Source: Pseudomonadota bacterium (lineage in GTDB: Bacteria > Pseudomonadota > Alphaproteobacteria > Acetobacterales > Acetobacteraceae). Taken from it: a DNA stretch of 32,823 nucleotides. The position numbers and the translations under genes were made by a program. Under the pieces are notes generated by a model that was not told the DNA's origin, made no database searches, and saw only the letters and a program-made list of their open reading frames with translations. Where the stretch lies: positions 1 through 32,823 of the forward strand of contig JAFEFJ010000012.1 of the NCBI GenBank assembly GCA_018240635.1. The letters run 5' to 3'. Shown here in pieces: positions 16,063-28,176 of this stretch; position 1 is the first letter of the stretch; every line of letters starts with the position of its first letter.

Positions 16063-19000
16063 ATGGACAGTCCGGACGATCCCGCCATCGGCGCCTGGCT
16101 CGACCGGCTCGGGCTCGGCCGGTACCGCGCGCTGTTCGCCGCCCAGGAACTGGACATGGAGACGCTGGCCGAGGTCAGCGAGCAGGACCTGGAAGCCTGG
16201 GGCGTGCCGTTCGGCCCGCGCAAGCGGCTGGCCAAGGCGATCGCCGCGCTGCGCGGCCCGCCCGCCGCCGCCGCCGAGTCCGCGGCCAACGCCGCCGCGC
16301 CGCTGGGCGGCCCGGCGCAGGCCGGCGAGCGGCGGCAGGTGACGGTGATGTTCTGCGACATGGTCGGATCGAGCCGGCTCGCGCTGCGCCACGACCCCGA
16401 GGACGTACGCGAGGTGATGCGGGCCTACCGCGACATCTGCGAGGCCGCCATCGCGCGCTACGAGGGGTTCGTGGTGCGCTATTTCGGCGACGGCGTGCTG
16501 GCCTGCTTCGGCTGGCCCGAAGCGCACGAGGACGACGCCGAGCGCGCGGTGCGCGCCGGGCGGATGATCATCGCGGAGATGGCGTCCTCGCAGCCGCTGC
16601 CGGACATCACGCCGAAGGTGCGCATCGGCATCGCGACCGGGCTGACGGTGGTGGGCGACCTGATCGGCGAGGGCGCGGCGCGCGAGACCTCGCTGGTGGG
16701 CGACACGCCGAACTTCGCCGCGCGGCTGCAGGCCTTCGCCGAGCCGAACACGGTGCTGATCGCCGCCGGCACGCGCCGCCTGCTGGGCAGCCTGTTCACC
16801 CTGCGCGAGGTGGGGCCGCTGACGCTGAAGGAGCATCCCGAGCCGGTCGCCGCCTGGCAGGTGGAGGGCGAGGCGGTCACCGACAGCCGCTTCGCCGCCG
16901 TGCGCAACGCCGCCCCCTCCGACCTCGTGGGCCGCGACACCGAGATGGCGCTGCTGATGGATCGCTGGCAGCAGGCGCAGCACGGCGAGGGCCAGGTGGT
17001 GCTGCTGTCCGGCCAGGCGGGCATCGGCAAGTCCCGCCTGGTGGAGGCGCTGATCGACCGCGTGGCCGACACGCCGCACCGGCTGCTGCGCCTGCAATGC
17101 AGCAGCCATCACCGCATCAGCAGCCTCTATCCCGCCGCGCAACTGGTGCAGAAGATGGCGCGCATCGAGGCGGACGACCTGCCCGCGACGCGGATCGCCA
17201 AGCTGCGCGCGCTGCTGGGCAAGGAAGGCGCCGCCTGCCTGACCGCCTATGCCGAGCTGCTGTCGCTGCCGACCGAGGGGCTGGAGCCCCGGCTCGATCC
17301 CGACCCGCAGGCGCGCCGGCAGGCGCTTTTGAACGCGCTGACGGAGCGGATGGCATGGCATGCCGGCAACGACCCGCTCGTGGTGGTGCTGGAGGACGCG
17401 CACTGGATCGATCCCTCCACGCGCGATCTGGTGGAGCGCGTCTTGACCAGGCTGCCCCGCCTGCCGGTGATGCTGGTGATCACGCAGCGCCCGGAACTGG
17501 ACTTGGGCCTGGGCGACCATGCCAACGTAACGCAGTTGCAACTGAACCGGCTGGCACGCCGCTCCTGCGCGACGCTGGTGGACCGCGTCGCGGGCGGGCG
17601 CACGCTGCCGCGCGGCGTGCTGGACGCGATCCTGGAAAAGACCGACGGCGTGCCGCTCTTCGTCGAGGAAATGACGAAGATGATCCTGGAATCCGGCCAG
17701 CTGCGCGAAGTGGGCGAAGGTTACGTCCTGAACAATCCGCTGCCGCCCATCGCGGTGCCGACCACCTTGCAGGACAGCCTGATGGCGCGCCTGGACCGGC
17801 TGGGGCCGGTGAAGCAGATCGCGCAGATCGGCGCCTGCATCGGGCGCGAATTTCCCTACGTGCTGCTCGCCGCCGTGGTGCCGGTGGACGCGCCCGCGTT
17901 GCAGGACGCGCTGCGCCGGCTGAACGAGGCCGAGCTGATCGTCGGCGCGGGCCACGCGCCAGAGTCCGTCTACAGCTTCAAGCACGCGCTGGTGCAGGAT
18001 GCGGCCTATGCGTCGCTCCTGCGCAGCCACCGCCAGCAATGGCACGGCCGCATCGCCGAGGCGCTGCTGGAGCGGATGCCGAGCCTTGCGGAGACCCAGC
18101 CGGAAATCATGGGCCGCCACTTCGCCGAGGCGGGTGCGGCAGCCAAGGCGATCGACTGGCTGCAGCGCGCGGGCGAGCTTGCGATCCGCCGCTCCGCCGA
18201 CCGCGAAGCCTGCGGCCATCTGGGCCGCGCCATCGAACTGATCGCCACGCTGCCGCACGACGCGGAACGCGATGCGCGCGAGCTCGATCTGCGCGCGCTG
18301 ATCTCGGGCTCGCTGTTCGCCACGCACGGCTACAGCTCGACCGAGGCGGCGGAGAATTCCGAGCGCGCCTACGAGCTGTGCCAAGTGGTGGGCGCGCCGC
18401 ACCGGCTGTTCCCGACGCTGTTCGGGCGGTTCTCGAACTTCCTGGTGCGCTCGGAAATCCACGCCGCCATCGAGGAGGCGCGGCGGTTCGAAACGCTGGC
18501 GAACCAGCACGGCGATCCCGCCGTCGTGTCGATGGCGCACCGCAACCTGGGCGTCGTGCATCTGGTCGCGGGCGAGCCGGCAACCGCGCGCCTGCATCTG
18601 GACCGCGCCGATGCCCTGATGCGCCCCGAGGACCGCGCCGACTACACCTTCGCCTACGGGCTCGATCCGCTGATCACGCTGCTCAGCACGCGCGCGCTGG
18701 TGCTGCTGCAATTGAACGAGCACGTGGAGGCGGCGGAGGCGGCGCGGCTTGCATTGGACGAGGCCCGCACGCTGAACCATTTCGGGTCGCACGCCTATGC
18801 GCTGTCGCGCGTCGGGCTGTACCTGATGCTGCGCGACGACCGGGATGCGCTGGCCGATCACGCGGCCGAGCTGCTGCATGTGGCGCGCGAGCGCAACGGC
18901 CGCACCTGGGAATGCTACGGCGAGATGCTGACCGGCTGGTGCATCGCGCGCGGCGGCGACGTGGCGGCGGGTACCGAGCGGATCGAGCGGGCGATCGCCG

Positions 19001-19308
19001 GGCTGAGCCGTTTCAACGGAAAGCTGTTCGTCTCGCTCGTGCGCTTCGAGCAGGCGGCGCTGCTTCTGGCCGACGGGCGGACCGAGACGGCGCTCGCCTG
19101 CCTGGAGGCGGCGCGCCCGCTGCTCGATCCCGGCGGGCAGCGCATTGGCGAGAGCGATTTCCACCGCCTGATGGCGGTTGCGCTGCACCAGGGCGGCGCG
19201 CCGCGCGCGGCGGTAGAGGCGGAACTCGACCGCGCGCACGAGGCGGCGGTGCGGCGCGAGGCGCATTTCTACGCCGACCGCGTGGCACGGACGCGGGCGG
19301 GGTTGTAG
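16063..19308 (+). CDS. SAM domain / class III nucleotidyl cyclase / AAA ATPase / TPR protein
   Basis: A protein of 1081 residues. Residues 5-65 are a SAM domain (WLDRLGLGRYRALF, LEAWGVPFGPRKRLAKAI). Residues 92-240 are a class III adenylate/guanylate cyclase domain with metal ligands Asp99 (FCDMVGSS) and Asp143 (FGDGVLACFG), and the VGDTPNFAARLQ block with Asn217 and Arg221 for ribose and phosphate. From 285 comes a STAND-like ATPase: Walker A GQAGIGKS (317-324) and Walker B VVVLEDAHWID. The C-terminal third consists of TPR-like helical repeats. All catalytic residues look intact, so cAMP production is expected, gated by the ATPase/TPR sensor. The architecture is widespread in rhizobia and relatives. 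It converges with the six-gene operon across a family C repeat. Confidence 0.92.
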   Translation: MDSPDDPAIGAWLDRLGLGRYRALFAAQELDMETLAEVSEQDLEAWGVPFGPRKRLAKAIAALRGPPAAAAESAANAAAPLGGPAQAGERRQVTVMFCDMVGSSRLALRHDPEDVREVMRAYRDICEAAIARYEGFVVRYFGDGVLACFGWPEAHEDDAERAVRAGRMIIAEMASSQPLPDITPKVRIGIATGLTVVGDLIGEGAARETSLVGDTPNFAARLQAFAEPNTVLIAAGTRRLLGSLFTLREVGPLTLKEHPEPVAAWQVEGEAVTDSRFAAVRNAAPSDLVGRDTEMALLMDRWQQAQHGEGQVVLLSGQAGIGKSRLVEALIDRVADTPHRLLRLQCSSHHRISSLYPAAQLVQKMARIEADDLPATRIAKLRALLGKEGAACLTAYAELLSLPTEGLEPRLDPDPQARRQALLNALTERMAWHAGNDPLVVVLEDAHWIDPSTRDLVERVLTRLPRLPVMLVITQRPELDLGLGDHANVTQLQLNRLARRSCATLVDRVAGGRTLPRGVLDAILEKTDGVPLFVEEMTKMILESGQLREVGEGYVLNNPLPPIAVPTTLQDSLMARLDRLGPVKQIAQIGACIGREFPYVLLAAVVPVDAPALQDALRRLNEAELIVGAGHAPESVYSFKHALVQDAAYASLLRSHRQQWHGRIAEALLERMPSLAETQPEIMGRHFAEAGAAAKAIDWLQRAGELAIRRSADREACGHLGRAIELIATLPHDAERDARELDLRALISGSLFATHGYSSTEAAENSERAYELCQVVGAPHRLFPTLFGRFSNFLVRSEIHAAIEEARRFETLANQHGDPAVVSMAHRNLGVVHLVAGEPATARLHLDRADALMRPEDRADYTFAYGLDPLITLLSTRALVLLQLNEHVEAAEAARLALDEARTLNHFGSHAYALSRVGLYLMLRDDRDALADHAAELLHVARERNGRTWECYGEMLTGWCIARGGDVAAGTERIERAIAGLSRFNGKLFVSLVRFEQAALLLADGRTETALACLEAARPLLDPGGQRIGESDFHRLMAVALHQGGAPRAAVEAELDRAHEAAVRREAHFYADRVARTRAGL

Positions 19309-19321
19309 CAGACCGACGGCC

Positions 19322-19458
19322 CCTCTCCGCCCCGGGGGGCGGAGAGGCTGGGTGAGGTGGAGGATTCCAGGGACGTTGCCGTTGGCGTTTCCCACCTCAC
19401 CCTCCCATCGCTGCGCGATGGGCCCCTCCCTCTCCCCCCGCAAGGCGGGCGGAGAGGG
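19322..19458. repeat. Family C palindromic element, copy 1 (likely bidirectional terminator)
   Basis: Several nested stems are visible: a near-perfect 12-bp hairpin at 19322-19347 (CCTCTCCGCCCC and its inverse), an 11-bp pairing of 19350-19360 with 19392-19402, and CCCATCG-CTGCG-CGATGGG at 19404-19422 followed by CCCCTCCC. The last motif recurs at 28092-28110 with the same CTGCG loop. The element fills the space between the convergent cyclase gene and the GNAT gene, so termination from both sides is likely, although there is no T-tract. Confidence 0.82.
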
Positions 19459-19461
19459 GTG

Positions 19462-20103
19462 TCAGGTCGAGGGGATGGTGGGACTTGGACCTTCCCACGG
19501 CCAGCGTTCCGCCGCCTTGGCGGCTTCCTCCCGCAGCGCTTCCAGCGCGACGGGGAATACCTCCGGCGGCAGCCAGGCCAAGAGCGGCGGGCGGAGGGGT
19601 TCGACCTCAGGGTCCCAGACGCGGGCGGGGGGCGCGGTGCGGTAGCCGATCCTCGCCATCACCGACAGGCGGGGCGCGCCCTCGTAGACCAGGCCCAACG
19701 CCGCGCGCGCGCCCTCTGCGGCGGCGGCGCGCAGCAGGTGCCAGCGCAGCAGCGAGTTGATGCCGCTGCGGCCGAGCGCGGGATCGGTCGCAGCGCGGCT
19801 GAGGATGACGGCGGGGAAGAACCCGGCGGGCAGATCGACCGAGAGGCCCATCGCCTCCGCCGCCGCCGCCGCGCTCGGCGCAAGCGCGGCGCGCATCGTG
19901 GCGACGAGGCGGCCGTCCCGCGTCCAGCCGGCGGCGACGCCGCCCGCGCCGGTGCGTCCGTCCCAGGCGAGCATGTCGGGGCGCAGCAGTCGGAACTCCC
20001 GCGCTGCTTGGTACTGCGCGAGCAGCAGCGCATTGATCGCCGGCGCGTCGGTCGCCGAGGCGAGGCCGACATGGCCGAGCGGCAGGGCGTCAGGGTCCGG
20101 CAT
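19462..20103 (-). CDS. GNAT-like N-acyltransferase (operon gene 6)
   Basis: A protein of 213 residues, last in the six-gene operon. The central region looks like a GNAT fold: a long strand AVILSRAATDP (98-108), then the acyl-CoA pyrophosphate loop GRSGINSLLRWHLLRAAAAEG (111-131), then GLVYEGAPRLSVMARIGYR (137-155), the usual end-of-domain strand/helix/strand with the conserved GYR. The N-terminal PINALLLAQYQAAREF helix and the spacing recall FeeM-like N-acyl amino acid synthases and LuxI-type autoinducer enzymes, but this is only a resemblance. The ATG overlaps the TGA of the protease gene by one base (TGATG). The acyl donor and the acceptor are unknown; an amine on a product of the operon is a plausible target. 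Confidence 0.6.
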   Translation of the reverse strand: MPDPDALPLGHVGLASATDAPAINALLLAQYQAAREFRLLRPDMLAWDGRTGAGGVAAGWTRDGRLVATMRAALAPSAAAAAEAMGLSVDLPAGFFPAVILSRAATDPALGRSGINSLLRWHLLRAAAAEGARAALGLVYEGAPRLSVMARIGYRTAPPARVWDPEVEPLRPPLLAWLPPEVFPVALEALREEAAKAAERWPWEGPSPTIPST

Positions 20104-21098
20104 CAGACCCAGGCATAGGCGGGCGGCAACAGGCGCACCTGCAACTGATGCTCGATGAAGGTGAAGGGGTTGAACCAGGTGTGGTGCGCGGTGCCGCCGA
20201 ACAGCATCCCCACCGCGCGGTTGCGCGAATCCAGCAGCAGCGAGCCGGAATCGCCATAGGCGGCGGGGATGTCCACCACGATCTGATCGGTGAACGCGGC
20301 CAGGCCATCGTCGAAGCCGAGCGGCGCGTAGTTCGCCTTCACCGCCGCATCGACGAACACCACCTTGCCCTCCGTCAGCCCGGTCGACCGCCCCACCTTG
20401 CGGACGGTGTCGCCGGGCTGGAGTTCCCAGGGCGGCGCGCTTTCGCGGATCGCGCCGATGCCGTGGACGTGATTGGAGACCTGCCCGGGCCAGCACGCTG
20501 CGATGGCGGCGTCCACCTGGTTCGCCGTGCCGTCGAAATGCACTGGCACGAAGCGCAGCAGCGCGCCCTGCGCCTCTCCCGGATACCAGCCGCCGTCGTC
20601 CGGCGCGGGTTGCAGTGCGGCGTCGCCGATGCGGCCCTGGTTCATGCGCGCCAGCACATGGTTGCAACTGAGAACGCAATGCGCGCCGAAGATCATGTCC
20701 TGCACGCCGATGGCGGCGGTGCCGATGGGGAAGTCCCAGTGCGACAGGCTCGATCCGCCCGCGATGGGACGGTGCGGCGCGACCAGCGCGGCGTCGGCGG
20801 GGCGGGGCGTGCGGATATGCGTGTGCGGCGCGGGCACGCTGGGCGCTTCCAGCTCCTCCACGTCGATCTCGGTGCGCTGGCCGCCGCCTTCCAGGATGCG
20901 CGGCAGCAGGCGGGATTCATGCAGTTCGCCGGGCGGCCGCTTGCGCAGCACGAAGATCTTCAGCACCGGCTGGTCCGTCATTTCGCCGCCGCGCCGGCGG
21001 AAGCCGACGGCGGTGCCCACCACGTCGCCGTGGCGCAGCAGCGCGTGGCGCTGGTAGTTCTGCACCACGCGCGCCGCGATCATGTAGCGTTGCGTCAT
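20103..21098 (-). CDS. Cytoplasmic trypsin-fold serine protease, NAL1-like (operon gene 5)
   Basis: A protein of 331 residues without a signal peptide. A chymotrypsin-type triad can be placed: His147 in LSCNHVLA, Asp196 in NQVDAAIA and Ser284 in YGDSGSLLLD. The block GRSTGLTEGKVVFV between Asp and Ser, and the long N-terminal region before the His that includes a GTAVGFRRRG strand, resemble the NAL1 (narrow leaf 1) protease group of plants and its poorly studied bacterial relatives rather than secreted DegP or trypsin. An intracellular substrate is therefore expected. It starts 19 bases after the methyltransferase gene with AGGGGG before the ATG, and overlaps the GNAT gene downstream by one base. 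It appears to be the only enzyme in the operon with a clearly intact protease site. Confidence 0.75.
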   Translation of the reverse strand: MTQRYMIAARVVQNYQRHALLRHGDVVGTAVGFRRRGGEMTDQPVLKIFVLRKRPPGELHESRLLPRILEGGGQRTEIDVEELEAPSVPAPHTHIRTPRPADAALVAPHRPIAGGSSLSHWDFPIGTAAIGVQDMIFGAHCVLSCNHVLARMNQGRIGDAALQPAPDDGGWYPGEAQGALLRFVPVHFDGTANQVDAAIAACWPGQVSNHVHGIGAIRESAPPWELQPGDTVRKVGRSTGLTEGKVVFVDAAVKANYAPLGFDDGLAAFTDQIVVDIPAAYGDSGSLLLDSRNRAVGMLFGGTAHHTWFNPFTFIEHQLQVRLLPPAYAWV

Positions 21099-21117
21099 CC
21101 CCCTGCCCCTTCCCGGT

Positions 21118-21894
21118 TCATGCCCGGACCCCGGCGGCGAGCACGATGGTGAGGTGCGCCACCACCCGCGCCGCGGGCCACGCCGCCATCGCCGCGCGCC
21201 ATTCCCCGGCCTCGGTCTCGTCCACGGTTCCGGCGCGCGCCGCCTCGCGCAGCGTGGGCGCGAGCAGGTTCGCCGCCTGCGCGCCGGTGAGCGGCGCGGC
21301 GAAGGGCTCGACGCCGACGAAGCCGAGACCGGCTTCCGTCATGATCCGCCCCAGCGTGCGGCCGGAGAACGGGTTCTCGAAACGCCGCAGATGCAGCGCC
21401 TGCATCCGGCGTTCCAGCGCGGCATCGGCGCAATCGACGGAGAAGCTACCCCAGTCGGAATCGACCATCACCATCGCGCCGCCGGGGCGCAGCACGCGCG
21501 CGGCTTCGGCGATGCAGCGCCGCGCCGCGTCGGGCGGGACGTGCTGCAACAGCCGGTCGCTGCAACAGGCGTGGAAGGTTCCGTCCGCAAACGGCAGCGC
21601 GGTGGCATCGGCCTCGCGGTGCGCGGTCCAGGCCGCGATGCCCGCCGCCTGCGCGGCCTGGTCGGCCTCGCGCAGCATCGCCGCGTCGCGGTCAACGCCC
21701 CAGACCTGGCCGAAGGGACCGACGATGTGCGCGAGATCGACCGTGCCGACGCCGGGGCCGCAGCCGATATCGAGCGCGGCGGCGCCGGGGAACAGGCCCA
21801 TCAGCGCGTAGGCACGCTGCTTGATGGCGCGGATCGCAGGCGTGGCGGCGGCGCGGCGCAGATACTCGGCCGGAACCTGCTGGATCGGGTTCAT
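21118..21894 (-). CDS. Class I SAM-dependent methyltransferase, UbiE-like (operon gene 4)
   Basis: A protein of 258 residues. Motif I is ALDIGCGPGVGTVDLA (about 40-55), the acidic residue that binds the SAM ribose is in VWGVDRDAAML, motif II is ADATALPFADGTFHACCSDRLLQHV, and the post-motif is VLRPGGAMVMVDSD. This is the UbiE/Coq5-type layout seen in many small-molecule methyltransferases, including those in natural-product clusters. The substrate cannot be read from sequence. The ATG overlaps the stop of the PCMT-like gene by four bases (ATGA). A second methyltransferase directly upstream suggests two methylations, or methylation at two sites, in the same pathway. Confidence 0.85.
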   Translation of the reverse strand: MNPIQQVPAEYLRRAAATPAIRAIKQRAYALMGLFPGAAALDIGCGPGVGTVDLAHIVGPFGQVWGVDRDAAMLREADQAAQAAGIAAWTAHREADATALPFADGTFHACCSDRLLQHVPPDAARRCIAEAARVLRPGGAMVMVDSDWGSFSVDCADAALERRMQALHLRRFENPFSGRTLGRIMTEAGLGFVGVEPFAAPLTGAQAANLLAPTLREAARAGTVDETEAGEWRAAMAAWPAARVVAHLTIVLAAGVRA

Positions 21895-22547
21895 GGCTCG
21901 GTTCCCGCGCCGGGAATTGCGGCGAAGGCGGCGGCAGCCGGCTGCACGGCGGCATGAGGGCCGAGATCGCGCGGGCGCAGCACGCCCGACGGGTCTGCGC
22001 GCCACAGCGCGAGCCGCGCCGCGCCCGCGATGGCGAGCGGGGCGACGATGCGGCCGCCCGGCGCGAGCTGCGCGGCCAGCGCGGCGGGAAGCGCCGCAAA
22101 GGGAATGTTGGCAACGATGGCATCGAAGGGCGCGGCATCGGCGAAGGCGTCGAGATCCCCGCCCAGGCTGCGCGCGATCCCCGGATCGCCGTGCCGCGCC
22201 AGCGCGCCCTGGCTGAGATCGTAGCCGCCGGCTGTCTCCACCGTGAACACAAGCGCGCCCATCGCGGCGAGGAGCGCCGCCTGGTAGCCGCTGCCGGTGC
22301 CGATTTCCAGCGCGCGCTGGCCCGGCGCAATCGCGAGCGCCGCGGCGGCGCGCGCGACGGCGGACGGCGCCGGCAGCCAGCACGCGCCGAGCCACAGGCC
22401 GGTTTCCGCATAGGCGATGCGCCAGAAGTCGCGCGGCACGAAGGCGTGGCGCGGCACCGCGCGCATCGCCGCGATCACGCCATCGGGAAAGCCGATGGCG
22501 GCGAGCCGGTCAGCCATCGCCGCGCGCGCGAGCGGCAGGTCGATCAT
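21891..22547 (-). CDS. Protein-isoaspartate methyltransferase-like enzyme with altered loop (operon gene 3)
   Basis: A protein of 218 residues, about the normal length for PCMT. It has the family start (RAAMADRLAAIG), VPRHAFVP (about 31-38) and the SAM motif ALEIGTGSGYQAALLA. The substrate loop that in PCMT reads GxGQTIS(Q/A)P is rewritten to GACWLPAPSAVA, losing the conserved Thr and Ser of the active-site loop. Repair of isoaspartate is therefore doubtful, and a different carboxyl or hydroxyl acceptor is likely. PCMT relatives are known as tailoring enzymes in some lanthipeptide, lasso-peptide and graspetide clusters. Both ends overlap neighbours by four bases (ATGA), placing it firmly inside the operon. 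Confidence 0.8.
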   Translation of the reverse strand: MIDLPLARAAMADRLAAIGFPDGVIAAMRAVPRHAFVPRDFWRIAYAETGLWLGACWLPAPSAVARAAAALAIAPGQRALEIGTGSGYQAALLAAMGALVFTVETAGGYDLSQGALARHGDPGIARSLGGDLDAFADAAPFDAIVANIPFAALPAALAAQLAPGGRIVAPLAIAGAARLALWRADPSGVLRPRDLGPHAAVQPAAAAFAAIPGAGTEP

Positions 22548-24574
22548 CGCCCGTCCTCCGCCGCTTCCGCATAGGCGCGGTCGAAGCCGCCCAGCGCCGC
22601 CACCATGCCGGCGGGATCGCCGTGCAGCGCCACGAAGGCGAGCATGCGCACCACCTCCCGCGCCGCCTGAAGGTCGCGCGCATGGGCGGCATCGAACGCA
22701 TCCGACAGACCGGCGAAATCGGCGCGGGAGAGGAAGATCTCGTCCATGTGCTCCGCATCGTAGCGGTCCACGAAAACGCCCGTATCCAGATCGGCGAATT
22801 CGGCGAGCAGCGTGACGTTGTTGTCGCCCAGCGTGTAGAGCCAGGGGCGCGCGGCGCGGCCGATTTCCGGCTGGTGGTAGTCATGCAGGAAGCGCAGGCG
22901 GCTGAAGCGCGCCAACTGCGCGCCCATCGCTGCGGCGAACCAATCGACGTATTCGGGAACGCTCGGGCAGTCGGTCTCCGGGTCGCGGCCGAGTTCGGCG
23001 GCGAGGCGGGCGCGCGCGAGGCCGAGCACGATGGGCGCGTGCAGGCGGATCGCGTGCAGGCGGCGGGCGCGGGCGCGGGCGGCATCGGCGGTGGGCGGCG
23101 GCGCGGCGAGGCCCGCGAGGCTCGATCCCGCCGCATACGCCTCCAGCGCCATCAGCATTCCCTGCGCATCGGGTGCGGGAACGATGGCGTTCCATTGCGG
23201 GTGCATCAGGAAATCGTGCGCCAGCGGGGCGTATTGGACGCTGTGATAGAACCCCGCGATTGGGTCGAGCTGCTTCACGCGCAGCACGCAGCGGAAGCCG
23301 CGCACCGCGATGGCGGCTTGCAGCCTGCCGATGCCGGGAACATCGATCCAGTCGTCGTGCAGCGTGGCGATGGCCAGCACGGGCGCGGCGCGGCAGCCGC
23401 CCGCTTCCAGCCGCTCGGCGCAGGCGCGCCGGTGGCGCGCGCGGCACAGCGCCGCCAGCCCGTCGATGGCGCGGCCCACATCGACGAAGCCGCCCTCGCT
23501 GTAGGGCGTGCGGCCGACGCCGACGGCGGTGAAGTCGCGCAGCTCCGGCCGTCCCTTCACCGAAAGCCGGTCGATCAGCACCGCGCGGCCGACGCCGGGC
23601 TCCACGAGGCGCCGTCCGTGCGGCTCGTCCACGCCGTCCGGAACGATGGAACGGATGGCGTGGCGCTTCAGCGCGGCGGCGCGGGGCGCGCGCGGCGCGT
23701 CGGCGAAGCCGGGGCCGGCGAGGTCGGGCGAGAGGAAGTCGAACGTGGCATCCGCGCGCTCGGAGGTGCGCACCATCAGGTGCCCGGCGGCGGGGGAGGG
23801 CAGGACGTCCGCGAGGGCGGGGGGCGGGGCGGGACGCGCGGGGTCGATGGGGCCGCCGGACGCGGGCGCGGCGCGGCCTGTCGCGGGGGCGGGCAGCAGC
23901 AGCGGCAGCGGCGGCGCGCAGCGCGCCCGCGCCGCATCCAGCCAGGCGGTCAGCAGGCCAGCGTCGATCCCGTCCGCGCCGTCCAGGAAATCGAAGCGCG
24001 CGCTGCCGTCCGCGGCGCGCAGCGGCAGCAGCACGCGGCGCGGGTCGCCGGCGGCGAGCAGCGCGGGCAGCGCATGGCCGGCGGCGAGCGTTTCGCACAG
24101 CGTGGCCAGCGCACCGGCCTCGGCGCAGGGCGGCACCGGGCGGGCATGGTCCGGGGCGAAGGAGAGGATGCCGCGCAGGGCGGGGCCGTCCGGCGCCTCC
24201 GCCGGGTCGAGCAGCGGCGCGATCGTGGCGGCGCAGGAGGTGTTGAGGAACCCGGCGGCGGCGAGGCGCCCGGCGCGGCCCAGCGCGGCGGGGCGGGCGA
24301 GGCAGAGCATGGCGTCCGGGCGCATGTCCTCGGGCGCGGCGATGGCGCGGCGGTTGCCGCCCGGCAGCGCCTCGTGCCCGGCGGTGGCGGTGGGTGCCGC
24401 GATGCCGGGCGCCAGCGCGAACCACGGGACCAGCACGGCGCGGAACCCGGCGGCGAGCGCCGCCTCGGCCGCCGCCGCGCCGGCGGGGCCGGGGGCGTGA
24501 TCCTCCGTCAGCATCAGCAGGACCGGCCGGTGCAGGGTGCCGCCTGCGTCGCCGGGCGCGCGGGCGAAGATCAC
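22544..24574 (-). CDS. 676-residue protein of unknown function with a faintly SelO-like C-terminal half (operon gene 2)
   Basis: The start is a GTG that overlaps the stop of gene 1 by four bases (GTGA). The next ATG would leave a gap and drop conserved-looking sequence. The N-terminal 220 residues look like alternating strands and helices (RPVLLMLTED, FRAVLVPWF, DAMLCLARP) but match no family I can name. A Pro/Ala linker (225-260) follows. In the C-terminal half, GVGRTPYSEGG (352-362) and LGDNNVTLLAEFADLDTGVFVD (582-603) recall the GxTPYSRxGDGRA and NTDNxSxxGxxxDxGPFxFxD blocks of SelO, a pseudokinase-fold AMPylating enzyme, with Asn586 and Asp596 in the metal-ligand places. This is a visual resemblance and needs a profile search. 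No signal peptide or membrane segment is present. Confidence 0.7.
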   Translation of the reverse strand: MIFARAPGDAGGTLHRPVLLMLTEDHAPGPAGAAAAEAALAAGFRAVLVPWFALAPGIAAPTATAGHEALPGGNRRAIAAPEDMRPDAMLCLARPAALGRAGRLAAAGFLNTSCAATIAPLLDPAEAPDGPALRGILSFAPDHARPVPPCAEAGALATLCETLAAGHALPALLAAGDPRRVLLPLRAADGSARFDFLDGADGIDAGLLTAWLDAARARCAPPLPLLLPAPATGRAAPASGGPIDPARPAPPPALADVLPSPAAGHLMVRTSERADATFDFLSPDLAGPGFADAPRAPRAAALKRHAIRSIVPDGVDEPHGRRLVEPGVGRAVLIDRLSVKGRPELRDFTAVGVGRTPYSEGGFVDVGRAIDGLAALCRARHRRACAERLEAGGCRAAPVLAIATLHDDWIDVPGIGRLQAAIAVRGFRCVLRVKQLDPIAGFYHSVQYAPLAHDFLMHPQWNAIVPAPDAQGMLMALEAYAAGSSLAGLAAPPPTADAARARARRLHAIRLHAPIVLGLARARLAAELGRDPETDCPSVPEYVDWFAAAMGAQLARFSRLRFLHDYHQPEIGRAARPWLYTLGDNNVTLLAEFADLDTGVFVDRYDAEHMDEIFLSRADFAGLSDAFDAAHARDLQAAREVVRMLAFVALHGDPAGMVAALGGFDRAYAEAAEDGR

Positions 24575-26307
24575 TCCGCCGCTGCCCGCGGCGGCGGCCC
24601 GTCCCCCTCGGCGGCTTGTGGCGTTTCCGCGACGACGCCGACCGCGACGTGACCGAGCGGGGTGATGGCCCAGACCGCGCCGTCCGGCGTGGCGGCGAGG
24701 CGATGCGCGACGCCTTCCGCCCGCCGCCACGCTGCCTCGCCCGGCATGCGGCGGTAGATGCGCCCGCCGCGGCGGGAGGCCACCCACGCCTCACCGCGCG
24801 GCCCGATGGCGATGTCGCGCACGTTGCGCGCCTGGCGCGTCCAGGCCTCGCCCTCCCGGCGCAGCGCCTCGCCCGCCGGGGTGACGATCCAGGGCGTGCC
24901 GTCCGGGGCGAGGGCGATGCGTTCGGCCTGTGCGCCGGCCTCGGTCCAGTCGGCATCGGGAGAGGCGCGGTGCAGCACGGCGCCGCCATGCGGTCCGGCG
25001 GCGCGCGCGAGGCCCCACAGCGCGCCGGAGGCGCCGACGGCGATCTGAGCGACCTGCCCGCGTTCCGGCCGCCAGTCCGTGCCGGTGAAGCGCAGCAGCG
25101 TGCCGAAGGCGTCCACGAGCCAGGGCCGCCCGTCGGCATCGGCGGCGACGGCGAGGCCGCCCGCCCAGGCGGGGGCCCAGAACAGGCCGGTCCAGCGATA
25201 CAGCGGGTGGCCGCCCGGCCCCGCCAGCGCGCCGAGCGCCCAGAGCGAGCCGTCGCCGCCCGCCGCCAGGTCGCGCGCGGCGGACCAGGGCAGCAGCCGC
25301 CACTGCACCGGCAGCGGGGTTTCGTGCGCGGGGCCGGGGAAGCGGTCGGTTTCGTAGGCGACCTGCGCGCGGTGCAGGGCGGCGGCCGGGTGGGCGGTGA
25401 CGGTCAGCGCGTCGAAATGCGGGCGCGGCGGCGGGGTTTGCGGCGCGGCGGGCAGGACGGACGGGGCAAGGGGCGCGCGCAGCCGGGCGGCGGCGTGCAG
25501 CGCGGCGTCGATCGCGCCGCCGGTCCAGGACTTGCCCGCTTCGGGGGCCGCGAGGCGGCCGGGGCGGTGGCCGTCGTCGGGCAGGAACAGGCGCACGCCG
25601 ATGCGGTCGGCCTCCGCGGCGAGATGCGCGGAGAAGCCGTCCGGCTGCGGCGGCGTCCAGCCGGTGCAGACGACGGAGGGGCGGTTGTCGAGGTCGTGGA
25701 TCGCGGCGCTGACGGCGTCGATCCAGCCGCGCGCGGTGGGCGGGGCGGCATAGACCATCACCTTCGCCTTGGGCGCGAGGGCGGCGAGGATCAGCAGCAT
25801 CGGCAGCAGCGGCCCGTCCGGCGCTTCCGGCGCGGGCGGCGCGTCGTCCACCACGACGAGATGCGGGCGCTGCGCGGGTGGCGCGATGCCGAGCGCGGCG
25901 CAGGCGGCTTCCATCGCCGCGCGGCGCACGGTGCCGCCGCAACTGACGATGCCGACGCAATGGCCCGCGCCGTCGCCCTCCGGCAGGCCGAGGCTGGCGG
26001 CGAGGGCGGCGGGGGTTTCGCCCGCGCCCGAGGTGAGCGCGACGGCGGGGTGCGGCAGGGAGGGCTGGCCCTCGCCGTAACCGTCCGGGCCGAAAACGGC
26101 TTCGACGACCGGACGCAACAATTCCGGAATCGGATGGAGTGCGCCGGCGAGCACATCGGCTGCGCCGCGCAGCACGGCACAGCGGCGCGAGACATCCTCG
26201 GCGGCGACGGCGAAGCCTTGCGCGGCGGCGAAGTCCGCGACCACGCGGAACCCGGCTGCGCCCGCTTGCCGGCGCAGATAGACGCTGACCGCCGATTCCC
26301 CGGCCAT
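24571..26307 (-). CDS. Pseudo-sedolisin (S53-like) fused to a tectonin-type beta-propeller (operon gene 1)
   Basis: A protein of 578 residues and the first gene of the operon. Residues 5-75 resemble the prokumamolisin pro-domain (SVYLRRQAG, then ADFAAAQGFAV and FGPDG). Residues 85-280 follow the sedolisin catalytic domain up to LAPKAKVMVYAAPPTARGWIDAVSAAIHD and DNRPSVV, but the catalytic Glu and Asp of kumamolisin (GEVxLDIEV) are Pro166 and Met170, and the GTSxxxP serine block is missing. Residues 340-555 hold six repeats about 38 apart, each of the form IAVGxDGxxWxL (346, 384, 421, 463, 498, 536), as in tectonin/TECPR propellers. It is therefore probably a binding protein, not a protease. 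There is no signal peptide. The ATG follows GGGGGA. Confidence 0.72.
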   Translation of the reverse strand: MAGESAVSVYLRRQAGAAGFRVVADFAAAQGFAVAAEDVSRRCAVLRGAADVLAGALHPIPELLRPVVEAVFGPDGYGEGQPSLPHPAVALTSGAGETPAALAASLGLPEGDGAGHCVGIVSCGGTVRRAAMEAACAALGIAPPAQRPHLVVVDDAPPAPEAPDGPLLPMLLILAALAPKAKVMVYAAPPTARGWIDAVSAAIHDLDNRPSVVCTGWTPPQPDGFSAHLAAEADRIGVRLFLPDDGHRPGRLAAPEAGKSWTGGAIDAALHAAARLRAPLAPSVLPAAPQTPPPRPHFDALTVTAHPAAALHRAQVAYETDRFPGPAHETPLPVQWRLLPWSAARDLAAGGDGSLWALGALAGPGGHPLYRWTGLFWAPAWAGGLAVAADADGRPWLVDAFGTLLRFTGTDWRPERGQVAQIAVGASGALWGLARAAGPHGGAVLHRASPDADWTEAGAQAERIALAPDGTPWIVTPAGEALRREGEAWTRQARNVRDIAIGPRGEAWVASRRGGRIYRRMPGEAAWRRAEGVAHRLAATPDGAVWAITPLGHVAVGVVAETPQAAEGDGPPPRAAAE

Positions 26308-26340
26308 TGATTCCCCCGCCGTGTCCGCAACGATGCGCCG

Positions 26341-26369
26341 CCTATAGCACCGCGCCGCCTGCTCGTCTT
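26341..26369 (-). promoter_or_regulatory. Possible sigma-70-type promoter of the six-gene operon
   Basis: Reading the minus strand, AAGACG (26364-26369) and TATAGG (26341-26346) are separated by 17 bases and lie 34 bases before the first ATG of the operon. The -35 match is only the GAC core. It lies in the 151-base divergent spacer shared with the GMC oxidoreductase gene, the only large upstream gap of the operon. Confidence 0.3.
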
Positions 26370-26458
26370 GTGCGGCTTCCTGCGGGCGGTGCCCCGCCGC
26401 GATGGGGTTGCCTTCCGCATGGCGGCGGCTACCGTTGGGGGGAGCGGAGGGAACCGGG

Positions 26459-28075
26459 ATGAACGAGTACGACTACATCGTCGTCGGCGCGGGATCGGCG
26501 GGCTGCGTGCTGGCCAACCGGCTGAGCGAGGACCCGTCCAAGACCGTGCTGCTGCTGGAGGCCGGGCCGAAGGACGCCAGCATGTGGATCAGCATCCCGG
26601 TCGGCTTCTCCAAGCTGCTGAACAGCCCCGTTTACAACTGGAACTTCGAGACCGAGCCCGAGGCGTCGGTGAAGGGCCGCACCATCCCGATCCCGCGCGG
26701 GCGCACGCTGGGCGGATCGAGCTCGATCAACGGGATGCTGTACGTGCGCGGCAATCCGCTGGACTTCAACACGTGGTCGCAGCTCGGCAACCGTGGGTGG
26801 TCCTACGACTCGGTTCTTCCCTATTTCCGCAAGTCCGAGAATTTCGAGCCGGGCGGCGACGAGACGCGCGGGCGCGGCGGGCCGCTGAACGTGGCCAACA
26901 TGATCGAGCGGCACGAGATCCTGGATGCGCTGATCGACGCCGCGGAAGCCGAGGGCTGGCCGCGCAATCCCGACTACAACAACGGCAAGCAGGAAGGCTT
27001 CGGCTACTACCAGGTGACGCAGAAGAACGGCCAGCGCTGGTCCACCGCGCGCGCCTTCCTCGATCCCGCGCGCGGGCGGCCGAACCTGCATATCGAGACC
27101 GACGCGCACGCGATGGGCGTGATGCTGGAGGGCAAACGCTGCGCCGGCGTCGCCTACAAGCAGGGCGGCGCGTTGCGGCAGGCGCGGGCGCGCATCGAGG
27201 TGGTGCTGTCGGCGGGCGCGGTGCAGTCGCCGCAGCTTCTGGAACTGTCGGGCATCGGCCAGCCGGAGCTTCTGCAAAGCCACGGCATCGAGGTGCGGCA
27301 CGCGCTGCCCGGCGTGGGCGAGAACTACCGCGACCACTTCGCGCCGCGCATGAACTGGCGCGGCAAGCTGCCGATCACGCTGAACGAGTTGACGCGCGGC
27401 GTGAAGTTCGCGCGCGAGGTGGTGAAGTACTACACGCAGAGGCGCGGCGTGCTGACCTACACCGCCGGCATCGTCTACGGCTTCGTGCGCACGCGGCCCG
27501 AGCTGGAGGAGCCGGACGTGCAGTTCCATTTCGCGCATGCGAGCTACGCAACGGCCGCGACGCGCGTGCTGGACCGCGAGCCGGGCATGACGCTGACCGT
27601 GTATCAGTGCCGCCCGGAATCGAAGGGCTCGATCCATATCCGCTCGGCCGATCCGTATGCGAAGCCGGTCATCCGCCCGAACTTCCTGGCCGATCCGCTG
27701 GACCGGCAGACGGTGGTGGAGGGGATCAAGATCGGCCGGCGCATCATGAACAACGCGGCGATGGACAAGTACCGCAAGCACGAGATGAACCCGGGCGAGG
27801 CGGCGCAGACCGACGAGCAGATCCTCGATTGGGCGCGCGGCAATGGGCAGACCACGTATCACGTGGTGGGCACCTGCAAGATGGGCCAGGACCCGATGGC
27901 GGTGGTGGACGATCAGCTGCGCGTGCGCGGGATTTCCGGCCTGCGCGTGGCCGACGCCTCGATCATGCCGACGATGGTTTCAGGCAACACCAACGCCGCC
28001 GTGATCATGATCGCCGAGAAGGCCGCCGACATGATCAAGCAGGCGGCGGTGGAGAAGATGCGGGCGGCGGCTTAG
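26459..28075 (+). CDS. GMC family FAD-dependent oxidoreductase (choline/alcohol dehydrogenase-like)
   Basis: A protein of 538 residues. The FAD dinucleotide fold is at the very start (DYIVVGAGSAGCVLANRLSED, residues 5-25), then GGSSSINGMLYVRG (GMC signature 1), SAGAVQSPQLLELSGIG (signature 2) and the active-site region TTYHVVGTCKMG with the catalytic His, ending in VADASIMPTMVSGNTNAAVIMIAEKAAD. Family members oxidise primary alcohols such as choline, long-chain or polyethylene-glycol alcohols; the substrate is not evident. GGAGGG precedes the ATG, and an upstream in-frame ATG 19 codons earlier lacks support. It diverges from the six-gene operon and converges with the luciferase-like gene across a family C repeat. 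Confidence 0.93.
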   Translation: MNEYDYIVVGAGSAGCVLANRLSEDPSKTVLLLEAGPKDASMWISIPVGFSKLLNSPVYNWNFETEPEASVKGRTIPIPRGRTLGGSSSINGMLYVRGNPLDFNTWSQLGNRGWSYDSVLPYFRKSENFEPGGDETRGRGGPLNVANMIERHEILDALIDAAEAEGWPRNPDYNNGKQEGFGYYQVTQKNGQRWSTARAFLDPARGRPNLHIETDAHAMGVMLEGKRCAGVAYKQGGALRQARARIEVVLSAGAVQSPQLLELSGIGQPELLQSHGIEVRHALPGVGENYRDHFAPRMNWRGKLPITLNELTRGVKFAREVVKYYTQRRGVLTYTAGIVYGFVRTRPELEEPDVQFHFAHASYATAATRVLDREPGMTLTVYQCRPESKGSIHIRSADPYAKPVIRPNFLADPLDRQTVVEGIKIGRRIMNNAAMDKYRKHEMNPGEAAQTDEQILDWARGNGQTTYHVVGTCKMGQDPMAVVDDQLRVRGISGLRVADASIMPTMVSGNTNAAVIMIAEKAADMIKQAAVEKMRAAA

Positions 28076-28081
28076 GCCCTG

Positions 28082-28176
28082 CCCTCACCCTCCCAGCCCT
28101 GCGGGCTGGGCCCCTCCCCTCTCCCGCGGTGCGGGAGAGGGGAGGGCTCGTTGCGGTAGCAACGGGAGGGTGAGGG
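28082..28176. repeat. Family C palindromic element, copy 2 (likely bidirectional terminator)
   Basis: The outer stem pairs 28082-28094 (CCCTCACCCTCCC) with 28164-28176, a perfect 13-bp inverted repeat. Inside are CCCAGCC-CTGCG-GGCTGGG (28092-28110) and a CTCTCCCGC...GCGGGAGAG stem. The CTGCG loop, the flanking CCC/GGG and the following CCCCTCCC are shared with the element at 19404-19422, while the four stem pairs differ in a paired way. It lies between the convergent GMC and luciferase-like genes and fills nearly the whole spacer. Confidence 0.88.

Follow-up and report, generated by a model that had tools for sequence, protein, structure and literature searches.

The DNA analyzed here is a stretch of 32,823 nucleotides (the window), positions 1 to 32,823 of contig JAFEFJ010000012.1 (assembly GCA_018240635.1), from a bacterium of the family Acetobacteraceae. 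It contains a block of six open reading frames (ORFs) on the minus strand, running from position 26307 to 19462, which a preliminary description had presented as a translationally coupled operon. All six ORFs were confirmed in the sequence together with the junctions given for them. Gene 1 (24571..26307, 578 amino acids) encodes a kumamolisin-like pseudo-sedolisin of family S53 with a C-terminal tectonin-type beta-propeller. The GTG start of gene 2 (22544..24574, 676 amino acids, a divergent SelO-like protein) overlaps the stop codon of gene 1 in a GTGA at 24574-24571. ATGA overlaps connect gene 2 to gene 3 (21891..22547, 218 amino acids, PIMT/PCMT-like) at 22547-22544 and gene 3 to gene 4 (21118..21894, 258 amino acids, a class I S-adenosylmethionine-dependent methyltransferase) at 21894-21891. 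A gap of 19 nucleotides (21099..21117), with a G-rich Shine-Dalgarno-like stretch ahead of the ATG, separates gene 4 from gene 5 (20103..21098, 331 amino acids), a NAL1-like serine protease of the trypsin fold. Genes 5 and 6 share a TGATG at 20105-20101; the start of the GNAT-like gene 6 (19462..20103, 213 amino acids) was therefore placed at 20103. On the opposite strand, convergent with the block, lies gene 7 (16063..19308, plus strand, 1081 amino acids), in which Pfam recognized a SAM domain, a class III nucleotide cyclase, an AAA_16 ATPase and a TPR-like region. No consensus promoters or terminators were detected within 19250-26480. No hydrophobic segment of signal-peptide strength was present at any N-terminus of the block products, and because signal peptides are absent the products are probably cytoplasmic, as had been proposed.

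A second copy of the block was found in a different genus, in the metagenome-assembled genome (MAG) of Acetobacteraceae bacterium palsa_911, with genes 1 to 6 in identical order. Contig C271 holds genes 1 and 2 and runs into the beginning of gene 3; genes 3 through 6 are on contig C305, and the ends of the two contigs overlap by 67 identical bases inside gene 3. The palsa_911 junctions are, in gene order, ATGA, ATGA, ATGA, a gap of ~21 nucleotides and an 8-nucleotide overlap, nearly as in the window. Its gene 7 has the same position and orientation as in the window and is 55% identical over ~1040 amino acids. Because this orthologue is in place at 55% identity, against 39% for the next-best full-length match (18 other family genomes), and because the two genomes have different flanking genes beyond it, gene 7 was counted in the block; the conserved block thus comprises seven genes, one more than the six originally listed. 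The two copies of gene 1 encode proteins with 40% identity; for the other genes the value was 52-55%. Codon position 3 was the least conserved in all seven genes, clearly so in genes 2-6 and with a modest effect in gene 1 (49 versus 56%), a pattern that fits selection at the protein level.

Matches to gene 2 were obtained in 2 of 249 family genomes, the window genome and palsa_911, and gene 6 matched in the same two. In pattern scans with gene 2 across 84,980 species genomes, which miss distant relatives, the 3,963-base palsa_911 contig PKWQ01000004.1 was the only match. Neither plasmids nor viral contigs contained a match to gene 2, and plasmids contained none to gene 6. Two further gene-2 matches in genus g89 were rejected as false positives, the ORFs apparently encoding proteins of the CoA-binding/acyl-CoA-synthetase type. 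The close orthologue of gene 5 (53%) was likewise limited to palsa_911; other relatives in the family, located elsewhere, reach at most ~40%, and this over only part of the protein. The TrpS proteins of three other genera that gave no gene-2 match (G077, G006 and G093) are as close to that of the window genome (83-85%) as is TrpS of palsa_911. The distribution of the block is therefore patchy, as expected from lateral transfer or repeated loss. Since order, orientation and overlaps are kept in two genera at 40-55% identity, and since genes 2 and 6 are confined to the same 2 of 249 family genomes, comparison of the genomes shows the block to be a single accessory module of seven genes, inherited together in a few Acetobacteraceae. 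The earlier proposal that the genes form one unit is upheld by this conservation: homologues lying mostly apart would have refuted it, but the diagnostic genes were found side by side in the two carrier genomes and in no others. As a separate observation, perfect GC-rich inverted repeats with arms of 12-16 nucleotides lie between convergent genes at 19320-19459 and 28082-28176; they are perhaps dispersed palindromic elements or terminators.

Residues 97-271 of the gene 1 product match kumamolisin (E 1e-17), and the Pfam Tectonin domain was detected with E 6.6e-10. The palsa_911 orthologue (P0008) could be aligned to the kumamolisin structure 1t1e across 413 residues (E 6e-98), whereas the window protein has lost a large part of the C-terminal half of its peptidase domain. 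The numbers and catalytic roles of Glu78, Asp82 and Ser278 in kumamolisin are well established. All three residues are lost in both copies of gene 1, with Ser278 replaced by Gly in P0008, and all three were retained in 29 of 29 other sedolisins sampled from the family. Most of these 29 proteins extend no more than ~20 residues past the peptidase domain; in three the tail is longer. Gene 1 thus looks catalytically dead in both copies, in agreement with its original designation as a degenerate protease.

For gene 2, relatedness to SelO was significant over residues 304-435, where alignment to the SelO family with hhalign gave a probability of 95.7 and E 1e-8, and 0 of 60 column shuffles scored as well. 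The C-terminal lobe did not align significantly with SelO in hhalign. The Pfam SelO model gave no match for the window protein (P0002) and, for the palsa_911 orthologue (P0007), 21.7 bits (E 1e-4) against a cut-off of 22.8. To the eye, GDNNVTLLAEFADLDTGVFVDRYD resembles the SelO catalytic loop convincingly; since 1-3 of 60 shuffles equaled its score, the resemblance is not claimed here. Residue numbers and roles in SelO are established for the family. The position of the ATP-binding Lys is occupied by Val351 in gene 2, and no alphaC Glu is present; both statements hold for the two copies. In SelO, the VAIK-type Lys sits in an LHLK/WHLK motif (PMC12599244). Gene 2 is therefore a candidate SelO-type pseudokinase that looks catalytically dead, and the suggestion that it might be an AMPylator is weakened by the loss of Lys and Glu. 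An ordinary, intact-looking SelO is encoded elsewhere in the window genome (C69, 393 bits). A term search of a SelO gene-neighbourhood survey gave no mention of methyltransferases (PMC10364804).

The gene 3 product matched the Pfam PCMT domain with 87.6 bits (E 1.3e-24; cut-off 20.3). Motif I is kept as EIGTGSG in the window; palsa_911 has EVGALTG and a gap in the Rossmann core, and with motif I for S-adenosylmethionine lost, its gene 3 looks catalytically dead. The substrate-binding segment GQTISQP is degenerate in both copies (ACWLPAP). A PIMT paralogue that scores better and looks intact is encoded at another locus of the genome (C504, 137 bits). Gene 4 matched Methyltransf_25 (E 1e-21), and its motif I, DIGCGPG, is intact in the window and in the palsa_911 orthologue (55% identical).

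The gene 5 product of the window exceeded the Pfam cut-offs for NAL1_N (E 8e-10), Trypsin_2 (4e-7) and Nal1_C (5e-6), and it matched the structure of rice NAL1 (PDB 7y77) with E 2e-13. The palsa_911 protein fell under the cut-offs for the same three domains. The presumed triad H147/D196/S284 is intact in both copies, and the motifs CNHV, VDAA and YGDSGS are invariant, which substantiates the assignment as a NAL1-type protease with its His, Asp and Ser motifs preserved. Structures of plant relatives of NAL1 have been solved; an established bacterial role was not found in limited literature searches. A small gene of 77-100 amino acids comes after the distant NAL1-like genes of other Acetobacteraceae and of Rubrobacter (L017:2079-2375, L018:9598-9894, L019:9110-9412, L020:9371-9607, L021:9156-9392 and L066:6899-7132). 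By eye, its product resembles a stand-alone NAL1_N domain, possibly forming a protease-inhibitor or prodomain pair with the protease. On a plasmid of Rhizobium ruizarguesonis (NZ_CP071682; L067:1342-6852), a NAL1-like gene adjoins a radical SAM gene and a putative peptide-modification gene of the HEXXH type, and the locus, which lies inside conjugation genes, also contains a repeat-rich precursor-like ORF with MHDQTHSEGGG repeats. On a plasmid of Rhizobium sp. T1473 (L071:5887-7785), a NAL1-like domain lies within an annotated DNA/RNA non-specific endonuclease adjoining a tyrosinase-family gene.

Pfam GNAT matches of gene 6 were weak (E 0.011-0.089 in the window, 0.0032 for the orthologue), and the best of them, 18.2 bits, did not reach the curated cut-off of 20.7. 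The protein identities first assigned to the block thus mostly stood; for gene 2 significance is confined to residues ~304-435, and for gene 6 the GNAT assignment is weak. Gene 7 contains the cyclase motifs FCDMVGS, YFGDG and VGDTPNFAAR and the Walker A motif GQAGIGKS. It matched TIGR03903, the TOMM kinase/cyclase model, with E 1e-141, the two module copies scoring 474 and 504 bits against a cut-off of 705.75. Seven other family paralogues (L072-L078) scored 407-615 bits, all likewise below the cut-off. A link to TOMM or other ribosomally synthesized and post-translationally modified peptides through this model was therefore rejected as specific; matches of cyclase/AAA/TPR proteins to TIGR03903 are easily over-read in this way.

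We tentatively favor, with a probability of about 0.3, the reading that the block encodes a cytoplasmic protease/methyltransferase module that is regulated and has pseudo-enzymes as adaptors. The gene 7 protein would use its TPR/STAND-like part to sense a cue and would control the module. The working catalysts would be the NAL1-type protease and the class I methyltransferase, possibly joined by gene 6; they are proposed as such because the triad motifs of gene 5 and motif I of gene 4 are conserved. The pseudo-sedolisin/propeller and the SelO-like protein, with the PIMT-like protein as a probable third, would act as non-catalytic adaptors, binding a cytosolic protein or peptide and presenting it for modification or limited proteolysis. 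This assignment is suggested by the loss of Glu78/Asp82/Ser278, of the SelO Lys and Glu and of motif I in the palsa_911 PIMT, and by the presence of intact-looking SelO and PIMT paralogues at other loci of the genome. The more specific picture of a new signalling-proteolysis machine is a doubtful one; in it, a coupled complex would be under the control of a cyclase/ATPase sensor, and a dead protease with its propeller, a dead SelO-type AMPylase and a PIMT-like protein would serve the NAL1 protease and the methyltransferase as substrate adaptors. Complex formation with fixed stoichiometry, which had been deduced from the coupling, was not supported.

Several points weigh against the favored reading. 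Confidence in the mechanism is low. A search of the operon for cyclic-nucleotide-binding domains found none, so that a direct link between cyclase and operon is putative. The roles of adaptors and catalysts were read from sequence, so that substrate, product, activity and interactions are putative. Only two genomes with the block are known; both are MAGs, and in palsa_911 the block is divided between two contigs. AlphaFold (AF2) models were unusable for gene 2 and gene 6, with predicted local distance difference test (pLDDT) values of 33 and 35, respectively. Calls of dead enzymes from sequence can also err; SelO itself was formerly called a dead kinase (PMC12409994).

The preliminary description had leaned toward a peptide-modification system. 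A biosynthetic cluster for a modified peptide or small molecule would account for a set of tailoring-type enzymes: the methyltransferases, the acyltransferase and the SelO-like protein would do the tailoring, and the NAL1-like protein would be the protease for leader removal or maturation. The Rhizobium plasmid with a NAL1-like gene beside radical SAM and HEXXH genes and the architecture of gene 7, which matches TIGR03903, point the same way. No precursor ORF, modifying core enzyme or transporter was recognized in the block, however, which offers little room for a precursor or transporter, and the seven gene 7 paralogues deprive the TIGR03903 match of weight. In one or both copies, three of the presumed enzymes (sedolisin, SelO-like protein and palsa_911 PIMT) appear to have lost catalysis; pseudo-enzymes would be unusual tailoring enzymes, and we consider such a pathway unlikely. 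Losses of this kind could also mark a former protein-modification module in plain decay, the more so as the two copies have lost different catalytic parts: the window copy lacks half of the sedolisin domain, the palsa_911 copy part of the PIMT Rossmann core. The absence of stops and frameshifts, the retention of the coupled junctions, the higher conservation of codon positions 1-2 and the loss of the same three sedolisin residues in both copies make decay quite improbable.

The patchy occurrence in the family, together with the sensor-like gene 7, whose cyclase domain is matched by Pycsar-cyclase models of PADLOC, would be consistent with an island for conflict or defence in which the cyclase/ATPase/TPR protein is a STAND-like sensor and the NAL1-like protease the effector against phages or plasmids. 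We regard this as improbable: the PADLOC matches are to generic class III cyclase and methyltransferase models with neither an effector nor a complete gene set, and no signs of mobile elements were noted at the block, although no systematic search for them was made. That distant NAL1-like and sedolisin relatives stand alone in other genomes might suggest a chance or loose neighbourhood of unrelated genes. This can scarcely be maintained, given that the orthologues stand together in exactly two genomes with the same order, nearly the same junctions and different flanks; for the orthologous set, chance adjacency is ruled out by the existence of the second copy.

All the families represented in the block have been described before, and its proteins are often distant relatives of the known members. 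The literature and family libraries searched contained no NAL1-type protease coupled to both a pseudo-sedolisin/propeller and a candidate SelO-type pseudokinase, nor any described system with this gene set, in line with the first impression of an unprecedented composition. The combination of tectonin and sedolisin domains was not described in the literature searched. A fixed operon of bacterial pseudo-enzymes with intact partners is a rare test case for the reuse of dead enzymes, and the block is compact enough to be expressed and tested as a whole.

In comparison with known systems, gene 7 has the cyclase-AAA-TPR part of the TOMM kinase/cyclase fusion but lacks its kinase domain and stays below the model's cut-off, and no TOMM genes were recognized in the window. 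Gene 2 shares with the SelO/YdiU AMPylase an N-lobe segment with G.GRA..L and D....G.G.TP.S; it differs in Val351 for Lys, in the missing alphaC Glu and in an extra N-terminal region of ~300 residues, the remainder not being significantly alignable. Gene 3 matches the whole domain of PIMT but has a degenerate substrate segment, and the palsa_911 copy is without motif I. The gene 1 product of palsa_911 is homologous to kumamolisin (MEROPS S53) over its full length, prodomain portion included, whereas both copies lack the three catalytic residues and have gained a tectonin propeller, and the window copy lacks half of the peptidase domain. Other bacterial NAL1-like proteases examined lie in unrelated contexts, often with a partner gene of ~77-100 amino acids; with them and with rice NARROW LEAF 1, gene 5 shares the NAL1_N domain, the trypsin fold and the His/Asp/Ser motifs.

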